NCBI RefSeq assembly: GCF_900112755.1
Contig: NZ_FOMW01000008.1
Location: forward strand, 1-64,000
Source: Sulfitobacter brevis
GTDB taxonomy: Bacteria > Pseudomonadota > Alphaproteobacteria > Rhodobacterales > Rhodobacteraceae
Direction: 5' to 3'
DNA: 64,000 bases
Shown: positions 7,986 to 45,561 of the stretch, piece after piece
Position numbering within the stretch: position 1 is the first letter of the stretch
Layout: each line of letters opens with the position of its first letter
Translations under genes and position numbers: made by a program
The notes under the pieces: generated by a model
Database searches by the model: none
The model's input: only the letters and a program-made list of their open reading frames with translations
Told to the model about the DNA's origin: nothing

Positions 7986-8630
7986 ATGACCCAGATCACT
8001 TCAGCCCATCGCAAGCTCCGTATTATCTTGTGGTCCGGCGCCATCACTGCCGCCGTTCTGACGCTGGGCCTTGCCGCCTTCCGCATGGGCGATGACCCTT
8101 CGCACAAAGTGACTTATACGGGGGAGGCCGACATTCGCTCGCAGTTCTCCCTGACCAACCACGAAGGCCAATCCGTCACGGAAGGCGATTATGCTGGCCG
8201 CTGGCAACTCGTCTTCTTCGGATTTACGCATTGCCCCGACATCTGCCCGACAACCCTGGCCTACATGGGAACTGTGCTGGATGAACTGGGCCCGAAGGCA
8301 GAGAATGTGGCGCCGCTCTTCGTGACGGTAGACCCAACACGCGACACGGTTGAGATCTTGAAAGAATACGTCGCGGCCTTCCATCCCCGGCTAATTGGGT
8401 TGACGGGAAGCGAAGCACAGGTGGCAGAGGCCGCCGAAGCTTTCAAGGTCTACTACGAGCGGTTCGAAGAAGAGAGTGCCCCCGCCGGATACCTGATGGC
8501 CCACGCCGGCCACATCTACTTGATGCGCCCCGATGGTAGATTCGAGGCAGTGTTTCTTGAAGGAAACCAACCGGCAGACGCACTGGCCGAAGAAATAACC
8601 ATTCGCATAGCAAAAGAAATGAGAAGTTAA
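7986..8630 (+). CDS. SCO1/SenC-family copper chaperone
   Basis: 214 residues with one N-terminal membrane anchor (residues 11-32) and a thioredoxin-like SCO domain. The copper site is intact: CPDIC (Cys83, Cys87) in FGFTHCPDICPTTL, and His173 in YLMAHAGHIYLM, aligning with the DH histidine of SCO proteins. The VTVDPTRDT motif is also present. SCO proteins deliver copper to the CuA site of cytochrome oxidase or act as thiol reductases. The gene overlaps the PCu(A)C gene by 1 bp, a common pairing for CuA assembly. Confidence 0.92.
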   Translation: MTQITSAHRKLRIILWSGAITAAVLTLGLAAFRMGDDPSHKVTYTGEADIRSQFSLTNHEGQSVTEGDYAGRWQLVFFGFTHCPDICPTTLAYMGTVLDELGPKAENVAPLFVTVDPTRDTVEILKEYVAAFHPRLIGLTGSEAQVAEAAEAFKVYYERFEEESAPAGYLMAHAGHIYLMRPDGRFEAVFLEGNQPADALAEEITIRIAKEMRS

Positions 8631-9070
8631 TGATCCGAACTGTTCTGATAGCGGCAACGCTATTTGCCACACCCGCATTTGCCGATGTTACCGTAACCGC
8701 CCCATGGGCGCGCGCGAGCATACTCGCCTCTCGTCCGGGGGCTGTATACTTGGCTATAAATGCTGACCCTGCGGATACTCTACTCGCTGTCAGTACACCT
8801 ATAGCAAAAGCTGCCATGATACATTCGGTAGAAACCGGGGAAGATGGCATCGCTCGGATGAGCGCTCTGGCGACGCTTCCGCTCGCGGCTGGCGCGGTCG
8901 TCACGATGGCGCCGGGAGACATGCACATCATGCTGACGGACCTTACCGAGAAGCTGCTGGAAGGCGAAACATTCCCTTTGGACCTGACCTTCGAGACCGG
9001 TGGTGAGGTGACAATAGATGTCCCGATCCTCGGCATCGCTTCCAAAGGTCCTGTGGAGGCGACGCAATGA
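8630..9070 (+). CDS. PCu(A)C periplasmic copper chaperone
   Basis: 146 residues with a signal peptide (cleavage after AFA). The copper motif of the family is complete: His65 in MIHSVE, Met77 in ARMSAL, and His99/Met101 in GDMHIML, fitting H-x11-M-x21-H-x-M. The family binds Cu(I) in the periplasm and passes it to SCO or directly to CuA. It is coupled to the SCO gene upstream (1-bp overlap) and to the SCO-like gene downstream (ATGA, 4-bp overlap). Confidence 0.92.
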   Translation: MIRTVLIAATLFATPAFADVTVTAPWARASILASRPGAVYLAINADPADTLLAVSTPIAKAAMIHSVETGEDGIARMSALATLPLAAGAVVTMAPGDMHIMLTDLTEKLLEGETFPLDLTFETGGEVTIDVPILGIASKGPVEATQ

Positions 9071-23847: not shown

Positions 23848-24329
23848 TGTTATTATCAGCGGACACGGCGATATCGAGGCGTGCAGGCGCGCGTTTCGCA
23901 ATGGGGCAATTGATTTCCTCAGCAAGCCTGTGGACGAGCAAGACTTGATCGACGCGATCCAAAAAGGCCATGCGGAGCTTGAAATTCGCCAACAAGTCTC
24001 TGCTGAACGTGCAGAGGCGGTGGCGTTGGTGCAGCATTTGTCCGCACGCGAACAACAGGTTCTTGAGATGATCGCAAAGGGTCTGACGACCAAGCAAATC
24101 GCTGACGCGCTGAGCCTGTCGCCCCGCACAGTTGAAAGCCACCGTGCGGCCATTGCGGTCAAGGCGGGCACGTCCTCGGCGGCGGAATTGACCCGTTACT
24201 GGTTGGATGCACAGGCAGATTAACACACTGATCAGTAGAACTACGGACCCCTTTGCGGATGCTACGAATATCGCCGATCACAGCGGCGAATTAGAACAAG
24301 GGCATCAGTTCAACAAAAGGAAATATAAA

Positions 24330-32834: not shown

Positions 32835-33132
32835 GAAGTCCACGATCTGCAAGATGCAGCGGACATCACGCCACTGGTGTGCGCAAGCCAGATGAGTGGG
32901 AAAGAGGCATATTCCAGACGCGCCGCACGTATTCTTCGGTGATCTGCGCGACAAGCTGGAGGACCTCGATCGCAAAGGCTCCTACGCGACCTATTGCGCC
33001 AGCGAATTTCGCGCGAGCATCGCATTAAGCCTGCTTGCAGCGAATGGACATGATAACATTCACGATGTGCCCGTCAGTTGGAAGGCACGGACCGCCGCAG
33101 GCTATCCCACGGAGACAGAAAAGAAAGAATGA
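32835..33132 (+). pseudogene. Decayed rhodanese domain with frameshifts
   Basis: Three frames together read a rhodanese domain. 32835-32879 gives EVHDLQDAADITPLV, 32879-32908 gives VRKPDEWERG, and 32909-33132 gives HIPDAPHVFFGDLRDKL then YATYCASEFRASIALSLLAANG and SWKARTAAGYPTE. A small deletion (about 7 nt) and a 1-nt loss explain the breaks. The catalytic Cys is in YCASEFRAS, like the C-terminal domain of metallo-beta-lactamase/rhodanese persulfide enzymes. The 3' end overlaps the DUF442 gene by ATGA, so it probably once formed an operon with it. Confidence 0.75.
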
Positions 33133-33587
33133 ACATTGATATGGACAACGTAATCAACATCGACAGCAATCTCAGCGTCGCACGTTTTGCGCCCTGCTCG
33201 GCTGACCTAAAGAAGGCCGCCGAGCAGGGCTTTATGAGCATCGTGAACTTTCGCACCAGCGAAGAAAAACAGGAGGTCCAGCCCGGCGAGGAGCAGCGCT
33301 TGGCCGAGCGTGCGGGGCTCACATATCTACATCATCCAGTATCTGCGGAGACTTTGGATGATGTGACCGTCGATATATTCCGACACAGACTCGCCAAGCT
33401 GCCCACGCCAGTGTTGTTGCACTGCGCCTCTGGCAAGCGCGCGGGCGCAATGGCGCTGATGGCGCGGGCTGTGGAGGACGGGCTGACAGGTGAAGAGGCG
33501 ATCGCGTTGGGTCAGAAATACGGTCTCGATTTATCCGAAGAGAAAATCGGTGCGTTTGTGAAGTCGTATGCAGATCGGAATGCTTGA
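33129..33587 (+). CDS. DUF442 protein-tyrosine-phosphatase-like protein
   Basis: 152 residues. DUF442 domain with the P-loop HCASGKRAG (Cys99, Arg104). This is the fold of the N-terminal part of beta-lactamase-hydrolase-like (BLH) proteins and of the TIGR01244 sulfur-transferase family, tied to sulfide and persulfide metabolism in alphaproteobacteria and Xylella. It starts within the stop of the decayed rhodanese gene (ATGA). In this sulfur-gene block a role in persulfide handling is more likely than protein dephosphorylation. Confidence 0.85.
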   Translation: MNIDMDNVINIDSNLSVARFAPCSADLKKAAEQGFMSIVNFRTSEEKQEVQPGEEQRLAERAGLTYLHHPVSAETLDDVTVDIFRHRLAKLPTPVLLHCASGKRAGAMALMARAVEDGLTGEEAIALGQKYGLDLSEEKIGAFVKSYADRNA

Positions 33588-33709: not shown

Positions 33710-34309
33710 ATGCTAGAGATGAAGCGACTGGTATTGGCGATTACTTTGTTATTTGCAGCTAGTGTGGGGCGCGCGGATGTCACTGTCGGCATCACCAAGG
33801 ATATGCCGTCCGTCGCTGTGCAGACCCCCGGCGGTCTGGTCGAGATCAACAGGATTCAGGATACCGAGAACGAGATTAAAGGCGAGTGGGCTAAGACCTC
33901 GCGTCCGTGTCCCGACTTCTGCATCCAGCCCTTCACCCCCGCCGAAGGTGTGACCACGATCGGCGAGTTGGAGTTAATTGCGATGCTTCAGGACCCTGAG
34001 GCAGTTGTCGTCGACAGCCGCACCAGCGACTGGTTTCAGGGCGGCACGATCCCCGGCGCGGTCAATATCCCCTACACCTTCATCCTTGATCAATTGGGCC
34101 AGTTAGGCTGCGAGCCAGATTTTGACGGATGGATTTGCGACAGCGCAAAACCAGTGGCGCTGTTCTGCAACGGCATTTGGTGCGGGCAATCCCCGACCGC
34201 CATTCGCAACATGATTGAGGCGGGCTATCCCGCGGATCGTATCTCCTACTATCGCGGGGGCATGCAGGTCTGGCGCATGCTGGGTTTAACCGTGACAGGA
34301 GAGGACTGA
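33710..34309 (+). CDS. Periplasmic rhodanese-like protein
   Basis: 199 residues; start at 33710 or at the second Met (33719). Signal peptide cleaved after GRA. Cys67 and Cys71 (RPCPDFC) lie in an N-terminal segment, and the rhodanese domain covers about 80-199, with VVDSRTSDWFQGGTIPGAVNIP and the active-site loop LFCNGIWCGQS (Cys153, Cys158). Rhodaneses carry sulfane sulfur on the loop Cys. Several exported rhodaneses of this type occur next to thiosulfate-oxidation genes. Precedes the one-component regulator by 129 bp. Confidence 0.86.
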   Translation: MLEMKRLVLAITLLFAASVGRADVTVGITKDMPSVAVQTPGGLVEINRIQDTENEIKGEWAKTSRPCPDFCIQPFTPAEGVTTIGELELIAMLQDPEAVVVDSRTSDWFQGGTIPGAVNIPYTFILDQLGQLGCEPDFDGWICDSAKPVALFCNGIWCGQSPTAIRNMIEAGYPADRISYYRGGMQVWRMLGLTVTGED

Positions 34310-34438
34310 GGGGCTCTTGTATAAGCGTGAGACCCTCAGTGTAAATGTTGCATTCTGAAGCGGCCACGGTAAGCTCGATTACAGGCTAACGCTCAGACCT
34401 GATGTGCCCATCTCCCTCCGGAAAACGCGGGAAATTGT

Positions 34439-35704
34439 ATGAACAGCATTGCCGCAATACCGAGTTGTCTAAGACTGCTTTTCCGCTGCCTGCAGGCCTT
34501 TGTTTGCGGTGTCGGTCTCTGTTTCAGCAGCGTTGCGGTGGCACAGAGCGCCCCTAGCGAAGCCCGTATAGGGGTGCTGGCTTATCGCGGGTCCGATCAG
34601 TTGCAAATCAGATGGCTGGCTCTGCGCGATTATCTCAATGCAACAATTCCCGACTGGTCGTTCGAGATTGTCCCGATAACGCTATCCTCGGCCAATCAGC
34701 AGATTGATGCAGGGCAACTGGACTTTCTCATCACCAACCCGGGGCACTTTGTAGCACTGAATAAATCATATCGTCTCAGCGTGCTTGCCTCCCGTTCGCA
34801 GTGGAAGTCGGACGGCACCCTGTCTGGCGAATTTGGCAGTACGATCTTCACATTGAAAGGCAGCGGCATTGCTACGCTGAAGGATACCGCGGAAAAGTCG
34901 GTCGTCGCGGTTGATCGCAACGCTTTTGGTGGGTTTCAAATGGCGTGGTACGAGTTTGACCGCGCGGGTGTAGACCTGCTGGGGGGCGACCAAGACATTC
35001 GGTTTGTTGGCTTCCCCATGGATCAGGTGGTGCTGCAAGTTTTGGCGGGCAAGGCCGATGTTGGCATTGTGCGCAGTGGCCTGATCGAGGAGATGTCCCG
35101 CGAGGGGCGCATTGATCCAGAGGCTTTTGCCTACCTCAATACCAATGTGACCTATAGCCACCCTGACAGGGTAAGCACGGGGCTTTACCCGGAGTGGCCC
35201 TTCGTCGCGGTCGCAGGGACTAGTCAAACGCTGAAAAACAGGGTCACGCTGGCGCTGTTGCAAGCGCAGGGCAGCCCGATTGCCAAAACACTAGGCGTCA
35301 CAGAGCTTTGGTCGGCGCCGGTTCCCTACCATGGGGTGCTAGAGGTGCTGGAGGCGTTTAAAGCCCGCACCGCGCGGCCGCAGATTGAAAGCCCATGGCC
35401 CATTCGCCTGTGGTTCGGTGGTATCTTCATCCTAGCGCTGATCGCCGCAGGCTTGATCTGGCAGCGGCTGCGGTCAATCAGTACGCCCCGCGAAGAAATT
35501 TCAGACCCACCGGATAAAGCCGAAGAAGCGGGTCTAACCCGTAGGGAGCGGCAAGTGCTTGCTCTTGTGGCGCAGGGAGATTCCACCAAAGAGATTGCGA
35601 TAAAACTGCGGATCAGCCCCAAAACAGTAGAGTTTCACCGCGCGAATCTTTTGCGGAAGTTTGGTGCGCGCACCTCGAGCCAGCTCGTCGCGTTGGCAAC
35701 CTAG
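34439..35704 (+). CDS. Membrane one-component regulator: PhnD-like sensor + TM + LuxR HTH
   Basis: 421 residues. Signal/anchor 1-36. Residues 41-310 form a PhnD/TtrS-type periplasmic binding domain (RIGVLAYRGSDQLQIRWLALRDYL, DFLITNPGHFVAL, LAGKADVGIVRSGLIEEM). A single helix spans about 325-341 (FGGIFILALIAAGLIW), and residues 363-421 are a LuxR HTH (LTRRERQVLALVAQGDSTKEIAIKLRISPKTVEFHRANLLRKFG). In TtrS the same sensor domain is joined to a histidine kinase and detects tetrathionate; here it is joined directly to the DNA-binding output. Neighbouring rhodanese and DsrE genes suggest a sulfur-oxyanion ligand. Confidence 0.88.
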   Translation: MNSIAAIPSCLRLLFRCLQAFVCGVGLCFSSVAVAQSAPSEARIGVLAYRGSDQLQIRWLALRDYLNATIPDWSFEIVPITLSSANQQIDAGQLDFLITNPGHFVALNKSYRLSVLASRSQWKSDGTLSGEFGSTIFTLKGSGIATLKDTAEKSVVAVDRNAFGGFQMAWYEFDRAGVDLLGGDQDIRFVGFPMDQVVLQVLAGKADVGIVRSGLIEEMSREGRIDPEAFAYLNTNVTYSHPDRVSTGLYPEWPFVAVAGTSQTLKNRVTLALLQAQGSPIAKTLGVTELWSAPVPYHGVLEVLEAFKARTARPQIESPWPIRLWFGGIFILALIAAGLIWQRLRSISTPREEISDPPDKAEEAGLTRRERQVLALVAQGDSTKEIAIKLRISPKTVEFHRANLLRKFGARTSSQLVALAT

Positions 35705-35717: not shown

Positions 35718-35821
35718 CGAATTTGGCGCAAAGCTCAGGGCTTCGCTTAGGTTTCACGATCACCCATTCCTGCCATGATTTCCGTGCCCGTGTTTCAAGG
35801 GCGAAATCCAGGGAGGATCTT

Positions 35822-36286
35822 ATGAAACGTATTTATTTGATGTGCTTATCCGTCGTGCTACTCGCGGCGGCAATGGTTGCGCAAAGCAGCGATGCCGAGG
35901 CGAGCGAGCGATATGGCAAGCAAAAGGTCGTGTATCATATTAACTATGACGGCGGCCCGGAGGACAAGCTTTACCGCGGTGCGATGCAGAATATCCAAAA
36001 CCACATTAACGCGGTTGGCGAAGAGAACATCGAAGTCAAGATCGTCCTGCATGGCAACGGGCTGGGGCTTTTGTCACAGGCGAAAAGCAATGAGAGCCTG
36101 CAGGGTCAGATTTTGGGACTGAAAGGTCAGAACGTCTCCGTACACGTCTGCAACAACACGTTGCAGGGTCGAAATATCTCGTATGAGAACGATCTGTTCG
36201 ACGTGTTTCAGGAAGACATTGTGCCAAGCGGCGTGGCCGAACTCTCGCATCTTCAGCAAATGGGTTATACTTATATTAAACCCTGA
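35822..36286 (+). CDS. Secreted DsrE-family sulfur-carrier-like protein
   Basis: 154 residues, GGAGG 7 bp before the ATG. Signal peptide to about residue 28, then a DsrE/DsrF-like domain: VVYHINYDGGPEDKLYRGAMQNIQNHI, VKIVLHGNGLGLL and VSVHVCNNTLQGRNI, with the conserved Cys110 of periplasmic members. DsrE-type proteins carry persulfide sulfur on this Cys. Immediately after the PhnD-LuxR regulator gene, so a probable regulatory target. Confidence 0.85.
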   Translation: MKRIYLMCLSVVLLAAAMVAQSSDAEASERYGKQKVVYHINYDGGPEDKLYRGAMQNIQNHINAVGEENIEVKIVLHGNGLGLLSQAKSNESLQGQILGLKGQNVSVHVCNNTLQGRNISYENDLFDVFQEDIVPSGVAELSHLQQMGYTYIKP

Positions 36287-36642
36287 GCCGAGCTAATGCA
36301 CGCCGAAGTGGGAAGCTGTGTTGCTTGAGGCTGACGCACGAGATGCCCTTGTTTGTCTCGTGCGCCAGTCTTTTCCGCGTATAGTTTGGCCACCAATGGG
36401 CTCTCAGGGTTCACTTGCTCCCTGCAAACCGAAGAGTCGCACGAAGGCCACCAGTAAACCGATAATCGAAAACGGCTGGAAGCGAGACGTTGCACATCTG
36501 AAATCTGGCGTCATGGGTAGCTATCGCGCGCAGCACCTTGCAATCCATTCAACGCCAGTTTTACCTTTGACCGGGCCGGCGTGTGCAGCCCGGTCAAGTT
36601 TTCCAATACTCTTACACGAATGCCTGCGGGTCGGCAGCGCCC
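36287..36642 (+). other. Convergent intergenic stretch with two hairpins
   Basis: 356 bp between dsrE (plus) and dsbA (minus). A 9-bp hairpin has arms at 36335-36343 and 36356-36364. A second, stronger one is listed separately. No gene supported. Confidence 0.6.
36567..36597 (+). terminator. Terminator between convergent dsrE and dsbA
   Basis: A perfect 10-bp stem (TTGACCGGGC at 36567-36576 with 36588-36597) is followed by GTTTTCC, a standard rho-independent layout for plus-strand transcripts; the A/T flank on the other side may serve the minus strand. Confidence 0.8.
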
Positions 36643-37269
36643 TCAGGCGCGGGCCAGAGCCACAGCTTCGAGAAGTGCTGCTTTGTCCATCGCGCCGGGG
36701 TATATTGTTGTCCCGATAATGAAGGCGGGCGTTCCCTGTAAACCCATGAGCGATGCCTGCTTTGAGTTGCGGCCCAGAAGCCCGTCCCATTTAGCTCGAT
36801 CTGCTTTGTAGGCGGCTTCCAGTGCGGAGGGGTCGAAGCCGGCGTCAGAAAGTGTCTGGCGCACGATCTCATCCGACAAACGGCCCTCCGTCGCCATCAG
36901 CGCATCACTGGCTTTCTCATAGCCACCGCCTTTGGCGGCTCCGAGGGCCAGTTGGCTTGCAGTCACGGAAGGCGCACCGAAGATGGGCCAGTCCTTCATC
37001 ACCAAACGAATGTTTCCATCGTTCTCCACCACATCGGTCAGAATAGGGTGGTTGGCTTTACAATAGGGACATTGGTAGTCGAAATACTCTACAATCGTGA
37101 CGTCGCCGTCAGGGTTGCCTAGCACCGGATTGTCTGGGTCGAACAGCACTTCATCGATGGTCATATCGGCAGTTTCAGCCTTGGCCGCCCCACCTGCAAA
37201 GGTCAGGCTGCTTGCGGCGATAAAACCTGCTGCGGTTCCGAGAATGGTGCGTCGCGTTACAAGTGTCAT
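36643..37269 (-). CDS. DsbA-family periplasmic thiol-disulfide protein
   Basis: 208 residues. A twin-arginine-like signal (TRRTILGTAAGFIAASS) is cleaved near residue 32. Thioredoxin fold with a DsbA insert: active site CPYC (Cys67, Cys70) in EYFDYQCPYCKANHP and the cis-Pro loop GLQGTPAFIIG. The last gene of a four-gene operon after an L,D-transpeptidase (4-bp overlap). With DsbD in the same operon it may be kept reduced and act as a DsbG-like protector rather than as an oxidase; that is inference. Confidence 0.9.
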   Translation of the reverse strand: MTLVTRRTILGTAAGFIAASSLTFAGGAAKAETADMTIDEVLFDPDNPVLGNPDGDVTIVEYFDYQCPYCKANHPILTDVVENDGNIRLVMKDWPIFGAPSVTASQLALGAAKGGGYEKASDALMATEGRLSDEIVRQTLSDAGFDPSALEAAYKADRAKWDGLLGRNSKQASLMGLQGTPAFIIGTTIYPGAMDKAALLEAVALARA

Positions 37270-38024
37270 GTGTTGTCTCCTGAGTTTAGGATTGTATCGG
37301 AATTGGCAATTGCTTGCCCCGCGAGTGGGACGGTGCCCAAGCCGCTTTCTTCTTCGCTCAGCACGACAACCTTGGCGCCTGACGCCACCCTGTCGTGCAA
37401 ATCGACGATGTCTTGGTTGAACAGGCGGATGCAGCCTGCCGATTGTGCCCTGCCGATGGAGCCGGGGTTGTTGGTGCCGTGGATGCGATAAAGCGTGTCG
37501 CGGCCATCCTTAAACATATAGAGAGCCCGCGCGCCGAGTGGGTTGTCGATCCCGCCCTCCATGCCGCCACGATGCGGCGCATAAAGGTCAGGATCGCGTT
37601 TCAGCATGTTGGGCGTTGGCGTCCAGCGCGGCCAGGCGCGTTTGAACGGGATGTTGCCCGTGCCCGAAAAGCCGCGCCCTTGGTCCCCGACCGCGACTCC
37701 ATATCGCATCGCAGTGTTGTCCTCCATCACGAGGTAGAGAAAACGAGCGAAGGGATCGACCACGATCGTGCCGGGTTTTTCCTTGGTCCGATAGTCGACC
37801 AGTTGCCGCCTGTTGCGCTCTGACAAGAACGCATCCGGTACCGCGGGGATTGTCTCTTCTCCATCCTCTATTGCGCTGTAGATCATTTTCAATTCTGGAT
37901 TTACCAACGGATTTGAAGCTGGCGCGGTTGCGAGCGGCTTGGCGGCCGGCTGCGCACAAGCAGCTAGAAACGGGAGCAAAAGCAGCGCAAGCGCCGCCCT
38001 CCCACGGGGGGTATCAATGAACAT
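37266..38024 (-). CDS. YkuD L,D-transpeptidase lipoprotein
   Basis: 252 residues. Lipobox LAAC (Cys23) places it in a membrane, probably the outer one. YkuD domain with TIVVDPFARFLYLV, NPLGARALYMF, catalytic His182 in YRIHGTNNPGSIG and Cys198 in RAQSAGCIRL. It forms 3-3 crosslinks or anchors proteins to peptidoglycan. It overlaps the TlpA-like gene by 11 bp and dsbA by 4 bp. E. coli DsbG guards the single catalytic Cys of L,D-transpeptidases, so this operon context is suggestive. Distinct from the duplicated transpeptidases at 26024 and 49247. Confidence 0.9.
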   Translation of the reverse strand: MFIDTPRGRAALALLLLPFLAACAQPAAKPLATAPASNPLVNPELKMIYSAIEDGEETIPAVPDAFLSERNRRQLVDYRTKEKPGTIVVDPFARFLYLVMEDNTAMRYGVAVGDQGRGFSGTGNIPFKRAWPRWTPTPNMLKRDPDLYAPHRGGMEGGIDNPLGARALYMFKDGRDTLYRIHGTNNPGSIGRAQSAGCIRLFNQDIVDLHDRVASGAKVVVLSEEESGLGTVPLAGQAIANSDTILNSGDNT

Positions 38025-38838
38025 TGGGAACTCCTTTTAAGTCCTTGATCTGTGCGAGCAGGGCAGCCCGCGAAATCTCGCCGGTTCGCACCGATTGCAG
38101 GTGTCCGTCTGACGAGAAAAACAATGTGCTGGGTAGGCCGAGCATGTTCAGCTCGGCCATGAGGTTCATTTGGGGATCAAGGACCATGGCTCCTGTCCTG
38201 AGATTGAGGCGGGTAAGGAAATCGCGGATCGTTGCGGCGCTTTCTCCTTGGTTTGCGAAGGCGAATGTCACATCCTGCTCCGCTGCTGCGACCTCGGTCA
38301 TCATCGGCATCTCGCGGCGGCAGGGCGGGCACCATGTGGCCCAGAGGTTTAGAACAAGCGGTCTGCCGTTTGTTGCCAAGGGTCTCGGATCGCCCCTATC
38401 AAGGCTTGCGTAAAGTCCCTCTGGCAGTTGCCGTAGGGCAGGAGCGGGCACCATCAGGCCGACGGCGATCGCGGTCGTTCCTGCCAGTGCGACGGCCGCA
38501 AACAGCGGCGCAAAGGTGCTTTGGTGGCGCCACAACAGGACCAGCAGTAAAACGGTCACCCCGCAAATACCTGCGAGCGGATCGAACCCGCCCTGCCAGA
38601 AGGCAAAGACATCACGTGGGGATGCCGCGAAGCCGGACAGGTTCGCCAATACGAAACCGACCCGTGCCGTGACCACCCAAGTCACTACCGTGAGCGTCGT
38701 GGCCCAATGAATTGCTTTCGCATGCTCTGGCCGCAGACGTGCAGTTAATTCGGAGACAATCAGCAACACAGCCGCAGCAACGAACGCGAGTACCTGTGCC
38801 TGTGAGAACACGAGGGGTCCGATAGCAATTGGGTTCAT
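38014..38838 (-). CDS. TlpA-like thioredoxin with N-terminal membrane domain
   Basis: 274 residues. The N-terminal half has about four membrane helices (VLAFVAAAVLLIVSELTARLRPEHA etc.), resembling the shortened prolipoprotein-transferase-like region found fused to some TlpA proteins. The C-terminal half is a TlpA/ResA-type thioredoxin, active site WCPPC (Cys170, Cys173), with LGLPSTLFFSSDG at the cis-Pro. Probably a periplasmic thiol reductase fed by DsbD, whose gene overlaps it by 4 bp upstream. Confidence 0.85.
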   Translation of the reverse strand: MNPIAIGPLVFSQAQVLAFVAAAVLLIVSELTARLRPEHAKAIHWATTLTVVTWVVTARVGFVLANLSGFAASPRDVFAFWQGGFDPLAGICGVTVLLLVLLWRHQSTFAPLFAAVALAGTTAIAVGLMVPAPALRQLPEGLYASLDRGDPRPLATNGRPLVLNLWATWCPPCRREMPMMTEVAAAEQDVTFAFANQGESAATIRDFLTRLNLRTGAMVLDPQMNLMAELNMLGLPSTLFFSSDGHLQSVRTGEISRAALLAQIKDLKGVPNVH

Positions 38839-40636
38839 CGGATTGCCTTGAGTGAGGCCAGCACCCGCACCGCCGTCGTATCACCTACGATGCGCGTCGT
38901 TGCTGCCTCTTCTCCGCTGCGGTTCAGAAATACCATCGTCGGAGGACCAACGGCCCCTAATTGGTCGAGCATCTCTTGCCCCTGCGGCCCGAAGTCGGAC
39001 AGGTCCACAGCGATGCTGGCGACGTCTTGCAAAGCCGTCTGAACAGCGGGATCGTTCCAAACTTCGCGTTCAATTACCTTGCAGGTGACGCACCAATCCG
39101 CCGTGACATAGATCAGTGCCGGACGGCCTTTGACTGACCTGAGTGCTGCGCTCAGCGCAATGGAGTCTGTCACCTCCGCGAAGCTGGACTTGGCGCCTTG
39201 GGCCTGCGGTGCCGCGTTTGATTGCGCCAGCATTGCCAGCGGTCGCAGCGGGTCGCTGCCGCCCATCGCCGCACCAACAGCCATTAAAGCTCCGAAGATC
39301 AGCGCGGCGATACCAGCGGTCTTGCCCAGCCGAGCCCACGCACCCGATTCAGGCGACAGACTGTCAAAGGCACCCGCAAACACGCCCGCTGCAATCAAAA
39401 GGACGGACCAAGCCGTGAGGATCCCCGCTCCGGGATTGATGCGGCCAACCAGCCAGATCGCCATCGCAAGGAAAACGAATCCGAACACAGGCTTAACCCT
39501 GTGCATCCACGCCCCCGCCTTTGGCAGGACCCGTGGCCCAAGCGTGCCTGCGATCAGCAATGGAATACCTTGGCCGACACCCAGCGCGAACAGCGCGCCC
39601 GCCCCAAGGGCGACATCGCCGGTACCGGCGATATACAGCAACGCTCCGGCCAGCGGCGCCGTAACGCAGGGGCCCATGATCAAAGCGAGGTGAATCCAAG
39701 TGCCGCAGCGCCGGTAAATGTGCCGCGTGACCCTTTTCCTACGCCGGATAGTTTGCTGGTCCAAGCAGCGGGAAGCTGCAACTCGAATGCGCCGAAGTTG
39801 GACAGGGCAAGAAGGGCAAAGATCGCGGCGACCGTGTAAAGCGCCGCTGGCGATTGCAGCACCATCTGAAGGTTCTGACCAGACCAAGCCGCCGCCACAC
39901 CCAGCAGGCCGAATGCCGAGGCCATCGCCAACACGTACACGCCCGACAACGCAGCCCCGCGCCGCGCGGTCAGCTCGGCTCCCTGGCGTGTCAACAGACC
40001 GGCAAGGATCGGATACATGGGAAACATGCAGGGGGTGAAGGCCAGCAACAGCCCGAAGAAGAGGAACCCCGCGAGCACCAGCGCCACCCCACCGCGTGCC
40101 TGCAGCCCTTCGAGCATGCCCTCGTCGCCTGCGAGATTAAGTTGAGGGGGGGCACCGACAGTCGCGGGGACTTGCGCGGCGACCTCGACCGCACTCAAAG
40201 CTTCCTGAACCGGCGGGTAGCAGATGCCGTAATCCTGACAGCCCTGATAGGTCACGACCAGCGAACCTTCGACAGCAGCGAATGCTACCTGAGCTTCGTC
40301 ATAGTAGATTTCGACCGACCCGAAGGTCGGATCGTCCTTAGTGACTCCGGGCTGAGTGGTGATCGCAACCGCTTTGCCATCGGAAGTTTCTACCTTGAAG
40401 AACTCGCGGTAGAGATAGTAGCCCTCCGCGATGTCCCAGCTCAGCAATCTGCTGCCATCACCGTCGACAGAAGCCGTCATCCGGAACGCTTCGGCGACGG
40501 GCAGGGGTGCGGACAAGCTGCCGGACCGCGCTTGTACGGATAACGCCTGTGCGAACAGGAGTGATAGCGACAGGGCCAACCTTAGGAAAAATAGGCCGAG
40601 GGCGCGCGGTGTGTAGATTAATGAGGGCTGTTTCAT
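38835..40636 (-). pseudogene. dsbD: DsbD thiol:disulfide interchange protein, single frameshift
   Basis: Two frames together encode a full DsbD. ATG 40636 (GGAGG upstream) starts a signal peptide and the alpha domain with CQDYGIC, then membrane helices with FTPCMFPM. This frame ends at 39680 after GFTSL. The second frame resumes at LIMGPCVTAPLAG and runs to the gamma domain (TADWCVTCK), stopping at 38835. One base is missing near 39687-39688 (a TCN serine codon reduced to TC). All six redox cysteines are present. It may be a sequencing error, a recent mutation or recoded. DsbD moves electrons from thioredoxin to periplasmic partners. Confidence 0.88.
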
Positions 40637-40720
40637 GCGGGCTTGCTCGCCTCCCCGCCTTAAGCGAGGCTTAAGGCAAGCCCTGCATTCGGTAGAAAGA
40701 GTATTTTTGAAGGGCACCTG

Positions 40721-41386
40721 ATGCGCATCCTGATCGTTGAAGATGACGAGTCGCTGGCCGAGGGCCTCTCGGTCGGATTGCGGCTGTCAGGTCTGACCCC
40801 TGAACTGGTCGGTACCGTTGCGGATGCGAATGAGGCGCTGTTGCAGGGCGGGTTCAGCGCAATCGTGCTCGACATCATGTTGCCGGACGGGTCCGGTCTG
40901 CAATTCCTCGACGCCCTGCGCAGGGCAGGGGACAAAACGCCGGTGTTGCTACTCACCGCATTGGATCAGGTGCAGGACCGCGTTGCAGGTTTGGACATCG
41001 GTGCGGACGACTATCTGGGCAAACCCTTCGATCTGGATGAGGTCGCTGCCCGGCTTCGCGCGATTGTGCGACGGGCCGAGGGGCGCGCCGACGCGACACT
41101 GCAGTGGAACGGGCTCGCGTTGGATCCGGCGCGGATGATCGGCAGCAAGCAGGGCCGTCAGATCGAGTTCTCGCCTCGGGAATTCACCATTCTAATTGCT
41201 CTGCTCGAACGGCCGGGCGGGATATTGTCCAAAGCCAGTTTGGAAGAACGGATCTACGGCTGGCAGGACGGTATCGAAAGCAACGCTGTTGAGGTTCACA
41301 TTCATAAATTGCGCGCCAAGCTCGGAGCGGACTTCATTCAAACCGTGCGTGGCGCGGGATATCGGCTGGCAGGAGATTCCGCATGA
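40721..41386 (+). CDS. OmpR/QseB-type response regulator
   Basis: 221 residues. Receiver domain with phospho-Asp51 in IVLDIMLPDGSG and Lys in YLGKPFDLDE; winged helix with EFSPREFTILIALLERPG, VEVHIHKLRAKLG and TVRGAGYRLAG. Divergent from dsbD with 84 bp between starts, so direct control of the dsbD-tlpA-ldt-dsbA operon is likely. Overlaps the kinase gene by 4 bp. Confidence 0.92.
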   Translation: MRILIVEDDESLAEGLSVGLRLSGLTPELVGTVADANEALLQGGFSAIVLDIMLPDGSGLQFLDALRRAGDKTPVLLLTALDQVQDRVAGLDIGADDYLGKPFDLDEVAARLRAIVRRAEGRADATLQWNGLALDPARMIGSKQGRQIEFSPREFTILIALLERPGGILSKASLEERIYGWQDGIESNAVEVHIHKLRAKLGADFIQTVRGAGYRLAGDSA

Positions 41387-42756
41387 ACTCGATCCGGATA
41401 CGCCTATTCACCATCCTCATTGTCGCAACGGGGATCGTCTGGCTCTCCGCCTTTTCGTGGGTTCAACAATCCACCCGCGCAAAGGTGGAGCGGGTGTTGG
41501 ATGCGCGACTGGCAGAAGCTGGCCAGATGGTTTCCTCGCTGATTTCCGATCGCAGGATTGACGTCGCACAGGCCACGGCACTCGCCACAGACAAATTCAG
41601 CAGGTCAATAGCGGCTCCTGACTCGGCGGAGTATTCCCACAAGTTGTCTTGTCAAATTTGGTCGTTGGAAGGGGTCTTGGTAGGTAGCTCCGCGAGCGCT
41701 CCGGTGGGTAAGCTGACCGACAATGACACGGGGTTCAGCACCAGTCTGGTAGATGGCGAGGAGTGGCGGGTCTATTCGGTCGTGAACGAAGAACTTGGGA
41801 TGCGCATACTTGTGGGTGATAGCTATGTGGTGCGCGACCGGCTGGTTCGCGACGTAACAACCGGTCTGCTTTTGCCTGCGCTCTTTATGTTCCCCATCCT
41901 CGCATTGTTGATCTGGTTTAGCGTGCGCCGGGGGTTGCGCCCGCTTGACCAGATGGCCGAAGCGTTGTCAGACCGTGCGGCAGATGACCTCAGCCCAGTG
42001 TCTGTGCTGCCCCTGCCTCAAGAAGTTAAGCCCATGGGTAATGCGTTGAACGGGCTCTTCTCAAGGGTGGCAGACATGCGGGAGCGCGAAAAGTCGTTCA
42101 CCTCTTTTGCTGCGCATGAATTGAAAACCCCCTTGGCGGGGATCAAGACGCAAGCCCAAGTGGCGGCGATCTCGCAAGATCCGGCAACGCGCCTGCAAGC
42201 GCTGAACCGCATCCAACAAGGGGTCGAGCGCGCCGACAGGATGGTGCGCCAATTGCTGGCACTTGCCGCGCTGGAAGGGCAGGAAAGCGCAAGCCACGCT
42301 AAGGCCTCTGTGGCCTCAGTGGTCCGCGACGTGGCCAGCGACCTGACCCGCATCGCCACTGACCGGAACATCGGGATCGACATCAAAGACCTCGACGCCG
42401 GAGGGATGCGGGCTGATGCAATCTTGCTCAGTGTTGCGGTACGCAACGTGGTGGAAAACGCGATCATTGCTGCGCCGGACGACAGCCGGGTCGAGATTGC
42501 GGTCATAGGCGGTGCCGATGGCTGTCTTGTCACAGTTTCAGACCGTGGGCGCGGCATCGCTGATGCCGACCGGTCTCAGATTTCAGATCGCTTTTTCCGC
42601 GGTAAAGGCGCTGCGGATGGCGGAAGTGGCTTGGGGTTGTCTATCGTTGCCACGGCCTTGCGTCGACTGGGTGGGGAGATCGAGTTTCGGCCGCGTGCAG
42701 GTGGTGGCGAAGTGGTGACGCTGCGCTTGCCGAGCCATACCGATAACCAAGGCTGA
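41383..42756 (+). CDS. QseC-like sensor histidine kinase
   Basis: 457 residues. Two membrane helices (7-27 and 161-181) bound a periplasmic sensor of about 130 residues with a single Cys (KLSCQIW). HAMP-like linker, then H box SFAAHELKTPLAGI (His245), N box NVVENAIIAAPDD, G1 DRGRGIADAD and G2 GGSGLGLSIVATAL. The QseC group responds to varied envelope signals. Pairing with a periplasmic thiol operon suggests envelope redox or metal stress as input. Confidence 0.9.
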   Translation: MNSIRIRLFTILIVATGIVWLSAFSWVQQSTRAKVERVLDARLAEAGQMVSSLISDRRIDVAQATALATDKFSRSIAAPDSAEYSHKLSCQIWSLEGVLVGSSASAPVGKLTDNDTGFSTSLVDGEEWRVYSVVNEELGMRILVGDSYVVRDRLVRDVTTGLLLPALFMFPILALLIWFSVRRGLRPLDQMAEALSDRAADDLSPVSVLPLPQEVKPMGNALNGLFSRVADMREREKSFTSFAAHELKTPLAGIKTQAQVAAISQDPATRLQALNRIQQGVERADRMVRQLLALAALEGQESASHAKASVASVVRDVASDLTRIATDRNIGIDIKDLDAGGMRADAILLSVAVRNVVENAIIAAPDDSRVEIAVIGGADGCLVTVSDRGRGIADADRSQISDRFFRGKGAADGGSGLGLSIVATALRRLGGEIEFRPRAGGGEVVTLRLPSHTDNQG

Positions 42757-44118: not shown

Positions 44119-45561
44119 TTACACAATGGTGACTTGGCCTGCACCGGCAACGCTCTTTTGGTCGTTCCAAGCTGGATCAGCAAACCAGCGTTCCATCGCA
44201 GTGATTGCCGTGATCTCAAGATTTTTTCGATCCGTCCCGAATGCCTCAGGCACGCCTTGCGCTGTGATGAAGCTGACGGGGTATTGCGCGTTGGGATCAA
44301 GAGGGCCACCTTGGGTGAAAGCGCCAACGATCCGTTGCGATTTCGGGTTCTCCAGCTTTAATTGTAGCGACAATCCTCGAAACCGTTTTAAGTATCCACC
44401 CATCTGATCGAACGGATCGCAAGCAAACGTGCGTTCGATGTTTTCTTCCATCATCTTCAGGATTTCTTGGCCATACATTGTGACAGTCGAAACCGGTGGA
44501 TTGACGGGGACGATGTTCCACAAATCGTTACAGGTCACGTCCCCTGGCGGAACGGGCACGCCGTAGCGCCATCCGTTTGAGAAAGCAATTTCAGTTCCTC
44601 CTGCCTTTGCAACCGCTGCTAGCAGGACATCATCCATTGGGGCAGTCAGACATGTATTGCGGTGCATGGCGATGGGGGTGCGGCCGACGATCCGCGTCAG
44701 ATCCTCTCCCTTGCTTTGCGCCTCTGCCACAAGTGCGGCCATCTCGGCGTCTTCGGTAATTGTGTCATCAATCTGGATGAGACTATGGGAGCTTTCCACA
44801 ATCTGACCGTCCGCGACCGATAAATCTAGTCGACCGATAAACGCGCCGTGGCATCCGGACTGGATTATTAGGGTTTCTCCGACCGCGACAGGTTCGCTTA
44901 GTCTGTTATGGGTATGTCCACTGAGGATAACGTTAATGCCGCCAACCTGACGTGCAAGCTCTAGGTCCTGCGGCAGCCCTAGGTGGGACAAAACGATGAC
45001 TAGATCCGCGCCTTTTGAGCGGAGCGCCGCGCTCTCAGCCCGCGCTTCGTCCACGCCGTTCGTAAACCGCACACCTTCGGAAAAATGCGGGGGCATGCTT
45101 TTATCGATGATTGTCGCAGCAATGCCAATGACCCCGATTTGCAGGCCTCCGACCTCCCTCATGACCGTTGCGGGGAAAGGCCTGGTGTTGTCTCCCTTCC
45201 GGTAACAGTTTGCCGCTAGAAGAGGATAAGATAGTCGCGCCGCGAGTTCTTCGACATGCGCTGGACCCCATGCGAATTCCCAGTGAGCGGTCATAGCTGC
45301 AAGGCCAAGGGCATTGATCGGTGGAACCAGGGCTTTGCCCTTGGTTGTCACGGCAAGATGGGTACCGTGAAAGGTGTCACCGTTGTCCAGCGCGAGCGTT
45401 GCGCCCGAGGTTTCAGATTTGATCCGATCAAAAAGTGTTTTGATCCGCGCTAAACCGCCGAGCATCGGATACTCCGGCCCAGCGGCGGTCCAAATCAGTT
45501 CAGGGTGCGGGGTCAGATACCCGTGCAAATCGTTCATTTGCAGCAGTGTGATACGAGACAT
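44119..45561 (-). CDS. Cytoplasmic SoxB-like / 5'-nucleotidase-family metallophosphatase
   Basis: 480 residues with no signal peptide (starts MSRITLLQMNDLHG). Metallophosphatase motifs: NDLHG, ALDNGDTFHGT, VIVLSHLG and LSGHTHN, followed by a 5'-nucleotidase C-terminal domain (FSNGWRYGVPVPPGDVT). Where nucleotidases have GNHEF, this has TAHWEFAWGP, the HWEF form seen in thiosulfohydrolase SoxB. SoxB is periplasmic and works on SoxYZ-bound sulfur, but there are no soxYZ genes here. Activity is therefore uncertain. 41 bp downstream of its start lies the AcfC gene end, which follows on the same strand. Confidence 0.8.
   Translation of the reverse strand: MSRITLLQMNDLHGYLTPHPELIWTAAGPEYPMLGGLARIKTLFDRIKSETSGATLALDNGDTFHGTHLAVTTKGKALVPPINALGLAAMTAHWEFAWGPAHVEELAARLSYPLLAANCYRKGDNTRPFPATVMREVGGLQIGVIGIAATIIDKSMPPHFSEGVRFTNGVDEARAESAALRSKGADLVIVLSHLGLPQDLELARQVGGINVILSGHTHNRLSEPVAVGETLIIQSGCHGAFIGRLDLSVADGQIVESSHSLIQIDDTITEDAEMAALVAEAQSKGEDLTRIVGRTPIAMHRNTCLTAPMDDVLLAAVAKAGGTEIAFSNGWRYGVPVPPGDVTCNDLWNIVPVNPPVSTVTMYGQEILKMMEENIERTFACDPFDQMGGYLKRFRGLSLQLKLENPKSQRIVGAFTQGGPLDPNAQYPVSFITAQGVPEAFGTDRKNLEITAITAMERWFADPAWNDQKSVAGAGQVTIV

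Follow-up and report, generated by a model that had tools for sequence, protein, structure and literature searches.

How might a bacterium read a solute in its periplasm and answer it in transcription with a single protein? This question is raised by the gene at 34439-35704 of the window, by which we mean the whole 64,000-nucleotide stretch of Sulfitobacter brevis DNA that was analyzed. An initial annotation, made from the sequence alone, described the product as a periplasmic binding-protein domain joined through one transmembrane (TM) helix to a LuxR-type helix-turn-helix (HTH) domain, and suggested that it may be a one-protein sulfur-oxyanion switch. Kinases with this sensor domain have been tested in Escherichia coli, where ThsS answers thiosulfate and TtrS tetrathionate according to Daeffler et al. 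(2017, PMC5408782). External-sulfur sensing by the regulators of sulfur oxidizers is called poorly understood in PMC11582611. Our analysis of the architecture, kinship, distribution, and gene neighborhood of the fusion partly supports the initial interpretation as a whole.

Results

Architecture of the fused regulator

The gene is an uninterrupted reading frame of 421 codons from ATG to stop. Its features and those of its surroundings, all on the plus strand, are as follows.

33078-33587, +: BLH_phosphatase/TIGR01244-like sulfurtransferase-like protein (Pfam, NCBIfam); not conserved beside the sensor
33710-34309, +: exported rhodanese (Pfam); not conserved beside the sensor
34439-35704, +: fused regulator gene, 421 residues; TtrS-type periplasmic sensor, one TM helix, and LuxR HTH
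34439-34543, +: predicted signal peptide, residues 1-35 (hydropathy 1.95; cleavage at A-V-A before Q36, by eye)
34559-35383, +: periplasmic sensor of Phosphonate-bd fold, residues 41-315 (NF040750, PF12974, conserved columns, fold)
35396-35473, +: single TM helix, residues 320-345 (hydropathy, AlphaFold2)
35534-35698, +: GerE/LuxR-type HTH, FixJ/TtrR-like, residues 366-420 (PF00196)
35822-36286, +: exported DsrE-family protein, 154 residues, ATG at 35822, invariant Cys110 (Pfam; conserved downstream of the fusion)
36335-36364, +: terminator-like hairpin of 11 pairs after the DsrE stop (hairpin scan)

A Pfam scan of the fusion places Phosphonate-bd (PF12974) at residues 44-287 (E 5e-35) and GerE (PF00196) at residues 366-420 (E 5e-20), and finds no HisKA, HATPase, or Response_reg domain. 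The hydrophobic 19-mer between the two domains has a Kyte-Doolittle value of 2.22. At the equivalent position, a TM-grade 19-mer is present in all 21 aligned fusions (1.53-2.71), the best 19-mer within their sensor domains reaching only 0.83-1.59. The N-terminal signal peak ranges from 0.84 to 2.39 across the same 21 proteins and is weak in loci L093 and L103. In the AlphaFold2 model (mean pLDDT 87.5), the binding protein has two lobes and is followed by a helix at 320-345 and then by an HTH that is helical. The linker between the TM helix and the HTH measures 20 residues here and 13-31 residues in the 21 aligned fusions, which leaves no room for a receiver or a kinase.

Judged by sequence and model, the chain is thus predicted to carry a periplasmic sensor, one TM helix, and a cytoplasmic HTH, which is the plan of single-TM one-component membrane regulators. 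The continuous frame that the initial annotation had described, running from signal through binding-protein domain and single helix to LuxR HTH, is confirmed by the reading frame, Pfam, hydropathy, and AlphaFold2, and its view that the HTH is tethered to the membrane, with kinase and receiver absent, agrees with the domain scan, the linker lengths, and the predicted topology.

Distribution of the architecture

A search for the architecture in other genomes, which the initial annotation had proposed, found the fusion at 22 loci on 22 different contigs, so that it cannot be a chance frame. The lack of conservation by which the initial annotation would have been refuted is thus not borne out. Among 55 loci collected from public genomes by pattern and tblastn, eight carry full-length relatives (L009-L016, 41-63% identity), and identity to the 34439-35704 protein is 35-63% across the 20 aligned orthologs. 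The identical loci L010 and L098, and likewise L014 and L069, were each counted once. The alignment holds 21 rows; the 22nd locus, L136, was found beside a DsrE gene and stands outside both alignment and tree. Pfam confirmed both domains in L136 as well as in L103 and L104, the two most divergent aligned rows.

Eighteen of the 22 loci are of Rhodobacteraceae type, three belong to Hyphomicrobiales metagenome-assembled genomes (MAGs), and one to a MAG labeled only Alphaproteobacteria. The distribution is patchy. The full fusion occurs in 6 of the 292 genomes of the order draw, own genome included, and at E 1e-60 in 12 of the 394 genomes of the family draw; the latter count is a lower bound, as genome G427 (L136) was missed there and recovered via its DsrE locus. 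In the class draw (385 genomes, E 1e-50), the only fusion is that of the own genome. The closest named relative is from an uncultured Sulfitobacter (63% identity), and of the 15 same-genus genomes among the matches listed, all but the own one lack the fusion.

The sensor domain is TtrS-like

The sensor part of the fusion scores 159.5 bits with the NCBIfam TtrS model NF040750 (E 1.1e-46, residues 41-315, model positions 6-271 of 555), below the whole-model cut-off of 750 bits, whereas the PhnD model gives 22.2 bits (cut-off 261.1) and 3A0109s03R gives 44.3 bits (cut-off 112.05). By these sequence scores, the sensor belongs with TtrS and not with PhnD. The "PhnD-like" label of the initial annotation therefore holds for the fold, which is indeed that of Phosphonate-bd, but not for the type.

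In a sensor tree of 78 rows, the 21 fusions lie on one side of a single branch (SH-aLRT 94), and their sister group consists of eight TtrS-type kinases from the same bacterial family. The tree came from a short search with a midpoint root, and the sister grouping is supported at 84 only. Of the 59 non-fusion relatives in which a sensor domain was matched, 57 entered the tree, and L057 and L063 were dropped as too short. The loci of the eight sister kinases contain TtrC-like genes in all cases, and TtrB-like and TtrA-like genes in seven, as judged by sequence clusters. Locus L177, the only one of them run on NCBIfam, has best hits to TtrA (1143 bits), TtrB (314), TtrC (183), TtrS (288), and TtrR (175), yet none reaches its equivalog cut-off, and for the regulator of this locus FixJ gives the higher score (238). 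The relation to TtrS is thus closer than originally claimed, as it extends to a sister clade of TtrS-type kinases beside ttrBCA-like genes.

Sensor relatives elsewhere have kinase, GGDEF, or GGDEF-EAL outputs, labels that were assigned by regular expressions for the respective motifs. Fusions of TtrS-type sensors with GGDEF or GGDEF-EAL were seen in Sulfuricurvum, Thiobacillus, Thiocapsa, and others (L017, L028, L030, L034, L051, and L060). The Sulfuricurvum locus (L017:2721-4004 and 8001-8912) has a TtrS-type sensor with GGDEF output and, about 4 kb from it, a SoxB above its cut-off (668 bits); owing to this proximity, a TtrS-type sensor may there feed c-di-GMP signaling in response to sulfur.

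The HTH domain and its source

The best solved chains for the fusion HTH are EsrB and FixJ, and HTHs matching those of the fusions are present in all eight sister loci. A hidden Markov model of the 21 fusion HTHs scores six of the eight HTHs from TtrR loci at 65-73 bits, above the best of 11 other LuxR HTHs (63.6 bits); in this comparison, L164 and L167 duplicate genes that also stand among the TtrR rows. Given the small margin, the domain length of about 55 residues, and the origin of the TtrR rows from eight genomes versus three, this result is merely consistent with a TtrR-like source. Most likely, as far as can be read from the sequences, the fusion arose once, in Alphaproteobacteria, by the joining of a TtrS-like sensor to a TtrR/FixJ-like HTH with loss of kinase and receiver. 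A second LuxR-type HTH is found in the window at 24038-24193 (+), in a frame of 131 codons, and is 46% identical to that of the fusion.

A conserved DsrE partner gene

In 18 of the 22 loci, the fusion is followed on its own strand by an exported DsrE gene, with 57-100% identity in 17 of these and 24% in L102. In our locus, a longer frame of this gene, started by TTG, begins at 35723. The protein has a DsrE/YchN-like fold, the nearest structures including 1l1s, 2pd2, 1jx7, 3pnx, and DsrEFH, and Cys110 (numbering of the 154-residue protein) is invariant in the 14 aligned DsrE rows. Assignment to NCBIfam NF041401 was rejected, the score of 19.4 bits against a cut-off of 200 being taken as chance.

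The DsrE gene of L103 is interrupted by the contig end. At L097:338-712 (genome G568), the match stops about halfway and the remainder matches another contig (G568:C84:171989-172177), which reflects either an insertion or an assembly break. No DsrE gene was found downstream of the fusion in L014, L101, and L104, and the contig of L011 stops after 484 bp; a second neighborhood clustering was done without these four loci. In L014 (9347-10342) and L101 (79-1047), a gene for an exported binding protein, SBP_bac_11, replaces DsrE after the fusion, so that these loci may have a different partner or ligand. A gene for an NMT1-like binding protein precedes the fusion in L014. Locus L102, of the same subclade as L014 and L101, combines its 24% identical DsrE protein with a PtxB-like His at sensor position 194.

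This DsrE subfamily occurs in 27 of the 394 family-draw genomes (E < 1e-20), being present in 10 of the 13 sensor-bearing genomes and in 17 of the 381 others (Fisher p 1e-10, to be taken only as a guide because the genomes are related). The recovery of G427 via its own DsrE locus introduces a slight bias in favor of the association; without this genome, the counts are 9 of 12 and 18 of 382. Among 18 DsrE loci from genomes with no sensor hit, L136 proved to be sensor-bearing. The 17 that remain are sensor-less in the sense of no hit in the family draw and no sensor within the 10-16 kb read, and in three of them (L142, L149, and L150) the DsrE gene adjoins sox genes. NCBIfam names SoxA, SoxB, and SoxC in L149 (genome G423) but assigns no Sox name to the cytochrome that we take for SoxD; the rhodanese beside these sox genes is 66% identical to that at 33710-34309.

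Other neighbors and sulfur genes

The initial annotation had pointed to sulfur-type neighbors, namely rhodanese, DsrE, and DUF442 genes. All three kinds are present, the 33078-33587 product being DUF442-like. Of these, DsrE alone recurs next to the sensor: neither the rhodanese nor the DUF442-like gene has a tblastn match at E 1e-8 around the other sensor loci, some of which are represented by short stretches.

SoxB above its cut-off is found in 15 of the 16 sensor-bearing genomes, compared with 244 of all 394 family-draw genomes. Within that draw, the counts are 12 of 13 for sensor-bearing genomes and 232 of 381 for the others (p 0.016, with genomes that are not independent), a weak association. 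The SoxB of the own genome that passes the cut-off is on another contig (G000:C27:140826-142505), and no SoxB homolog was found in the stretches examined around the other fusion genes. A SoxB-like hydrolase at 44119-45561 (-), 8.4 kb from the fusion and on the opposite strand, has SoxB as its best model, with 306 bits against the cut-off of 550 and a match that starts at model position 106. A TtrA-like gene is present in 3 of the 16 sensor-bearing genomes, in every case under the model cut-off, and none was found in the own genome at E 1e-100; a general role as regulator of tetrathionate respiration was rejected on these counts. The sox/DsrE context and the frequency of SoxB (15/16) versus TtrA (3/16) thus link the fusion to the oxidation and transfer of sulfur and not to the respiration of tetrathionate.

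Across 21 loci, the recurrent neighbors are NAD synthetase (8), SDR and photolyase-like genes (7), MORN-repeat genes (6), Zincin_1 (5), and LeuA and GltX (4), all named by eye from sequence except Zincin_1, which was named by Pfam. The gene calls behind these neighborhoods were a crude choice of open reading frames that picked some antisense frames (L010, L103, and several TtrR loci). As these neighbors look like housekeeping genes, no functional link was drawn, and a conserved larger operon was rejected, their recurrence amounting to gene order shared in a subset of loci. In L093 and L100, genes for a Pyr_redox_2 flavoprotein (SQR-like by eye), an arylsulfotransferase, and a sulfotransferase recur near the fusion.

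Farther along the window, 36643-42756 holds genes for DsbA, a YkuD transpeptidase, a thioredoxin-like protein, and DsbD, together with a PmrA/QseB-type regulator and a QseC-type kinase, and forms a periplasmic thiol-redox island adjoining the sensor gene. Its DsbD (38835-40717, -) is divided between two frames, which overlap and correspond to model positions 8-301 and 303-571 in one family, either a natural split or a frameshift.

Promoter and terminator scans of the region gave no more matches than shuffled sequences did, and when four upstream regions, out of 21 extracted, were compared by a simple scan for inverted repeats, no common operator emerged. An inverted repeat with perfect 7-bp arms (CTGAGGG/CCCTCAG) and no T-run after it was noticed by eye at 34306-34339, where it spans the rhodanese stop and lies ahead of the sensor gene.

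Discussion

Proposed mechanism

The fusion is probably a one-protein, membrane-anchored regulator that detects a sulfur oxyanion in the periplasm with its TtrS-type domain and governs the DsrE gene. A ligand of this class is proposed because kinases with the same sensor answer thiosulfate or tetrathionate (PMC5408782). The exported, two-lobed domain would close on a small sulfur oxyanion, with thiosulfate as the first candidate, followed by tetrathionate or sulfite. Closure, probably within a dimer, would be relayed by the single TM helix and the short linker, whereupon the LuxR HTH, tethered on the cytoplasmic side, would pair on a putative DNA target. The paired HTH would then switch, as a presumed activator or repressor, promoters of the neighboring gene for the exported DsrE protein and perhaps of other sulfur genes.

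The sensor domain and other possible ligands

A rather unlikely variant of this scheme retains the one-protein regulator but assigns it a different ligand, such as arsenate or arsenite, phosphite, a sulfonate, or a small organic acid. The fold gives it some footing. The PhnD/PtxB binding-protein fold is present (PF12974; 5o2j with Z 23.7, rmsd 3.3, and 246 aligned residues), and the nearest solved structures are XAC2383, PtxB (phosphite), ArrX (arsenate), HtxB, and AioX (arsenite), at Z 21.6-24.2 (VIA-align; Foldseek was also run), values so close together that the fold rows are hard to tell apart and the ligand type cannot be ranked from them. The SBP_bac_11 gene that stands in for DsrE in two loci and the His of L102 also speak for this variant.

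The residues aligned with the ligand motif of PtxB, the TtrS-type kinship, and the DsrE partner speak against it. PtxB binds the oxygens of phosphite through an STS-H motif (PMC5700983). By profile alignment rather than by comparison of pockets, the STS aligns with A162, F163, and G164 of the fusion, invariant in all 21 rows, and is thus replaced throughout. The His aligns with residue 194, which is Met in our protein, Met or Gln in 19 of the 21 rows, Leu in L104, and His in L102, a replacement in 20 of 21. A phosphite or phosphonate ligand is therefore unlikely; a ligand of PhnD type was set aside on the same replacements together with the low PhnD model scores. Moreover, the sensor domain has no Cys in 19 of the 21 rows, which makes a covalent arsenite site unlikely and also counts against thiol chemistry of sensing. 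Two motifs, TNPGH (99-103) and AFGG (162-165), are invariant in all 21 sensor rows. The Pfam scan found no ABC permease among the nine neighboring genes.

Proteolytic release, decay, and artifact

Less probable still is that the HTH does not act from the membrane, and that ligand-controlled proteolysis of the TM segment frees a soluble cytoplasmic HTH fragment. The single TM helix is followed by a low-confidence linker (347-361, pLDDT < 50) that would fit a cleavable tether, and a freed fragment could dimerize normally. A candidate protease might be sought in the Zincin_1-type metallopeptidase encoded about 5 kb upstream of the fusion in 5 of the 21 loci (e.g., L093:3637-4101), but this gene is part of the gene order shared by a subset of loci. 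To our knowledge, Zincin_1 is not a membrane protease family. The linker, moreover, is conserved in neither length (13-31 residues) nor sequence.

The patchy distribution (at least 12 of 394 family-draw genomes at E 1e-60, plus one found later) could suggest a decaying or repressing remnant with a silent sensor, whose HTH merely marks or represses its own promoter. We regard this as improbable, since both domains and the TM helix are kept in 21 of 21 fusions, with many invariant residues in sensor and HTH, and the pairing with DsrE persists across genera. An accident of annotation or assembly that joined two genes has nothing but the unusual architecture in its favor and is refuted by the recurrence of that architecture at 22 loci on different contigs.

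Relation to known systems

The membrane-anchored one-protein regulator that we favor resembles several known systems in part. The two-component systems TtrS/TtrR and ThsS/ThsR use the same TtrS-type Phosphonate-bd periplasmic sensor and a LuxR/FixJ-type HTH output, whereas the fusion has sensor and HTH on one protein, without kinase, phosphotransfer, or receiver, and its neighbor is an exported DsrE gene instead of ttrBCA or phsABC. It likewise has the GerE HTH of the LuxR/NarL-FixJ response regulators but lacks their receiver with its phospho-Asp. In ToxR, TcpP, and CadC, a periplasmic sensor, one TM helix, and a cytoplasmic, N-terminal winged-helix HTH of OmpR/PhoB type share one chain. The predicted one-helix plan of the fusion is the same, but its HTH is a C-terminal LuxR (GerE) domain and its topology, set by a signal peptide, is reversed; the likeness to a ToxR/CadC tether with a different output, drawn in the initial annotation, would hold in this sense. 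The arsenic systems AioX/AioS and ArrX/ArrS have their binding protein as a separate chain with a kinase as partner. AioX and ArrX thus resemble the fusion in using a like sensor fold (Z 21.6-23.7) in signaling, but the fusion carries sensor and output on one chain.

LuxR HTHs on membrane proteins have precedent in Eggerthella lenta, where DadR, CadR, and HcdR are activators with 10-12 TM helices that respond to enzyme substrates, and 74 of the 83 TM LuxRs counted have 10-12 helices (PMC9734109). Those sensors are polytopic membrane domains, whereas in the fusion a single TM helix follows a large binding-protein domain that is exported. Among the titles and abstract openings listed from open-licence literature, none describes a TtrS-type sensor joined through a TM helix to a LuxR HTH, and the word "phosphonate" is absent from the main text of a 2018 survey of transcription factor companion domains (PMC5882156). 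Thus, membrane-spanning LuxR regulators are already known from Eggerthella, but the combination described here appears to be new within the literature covered.

Implications

There is about an even chance, in our estimate, that the fusion represents a two-component pathway condensed into one tethered LuxR factor, in which a TtrS-type receptor for thiosulfate or a related oxyanion, without phosphotransfer, gives alphaproteobacterial sulfur oxidizers a direct reading of sulfur in the periplasm. The proposed reading of external sulfur would be unlike that of SoxR and sHdrR, which are repressors responsive to sulfane sulfur. The fusion is natural evidence that no kinase is needed to couple a TtrS sensor with a LuxR HTH and, if the proposed function is true, would be a compact one-gene biosensor. 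For the sulfur oxidizers themselves, it is a candidate for direct reception of sulfur in the periplasm, and as such bears on the gap in our understanding of how their regulators sense external sulfur.
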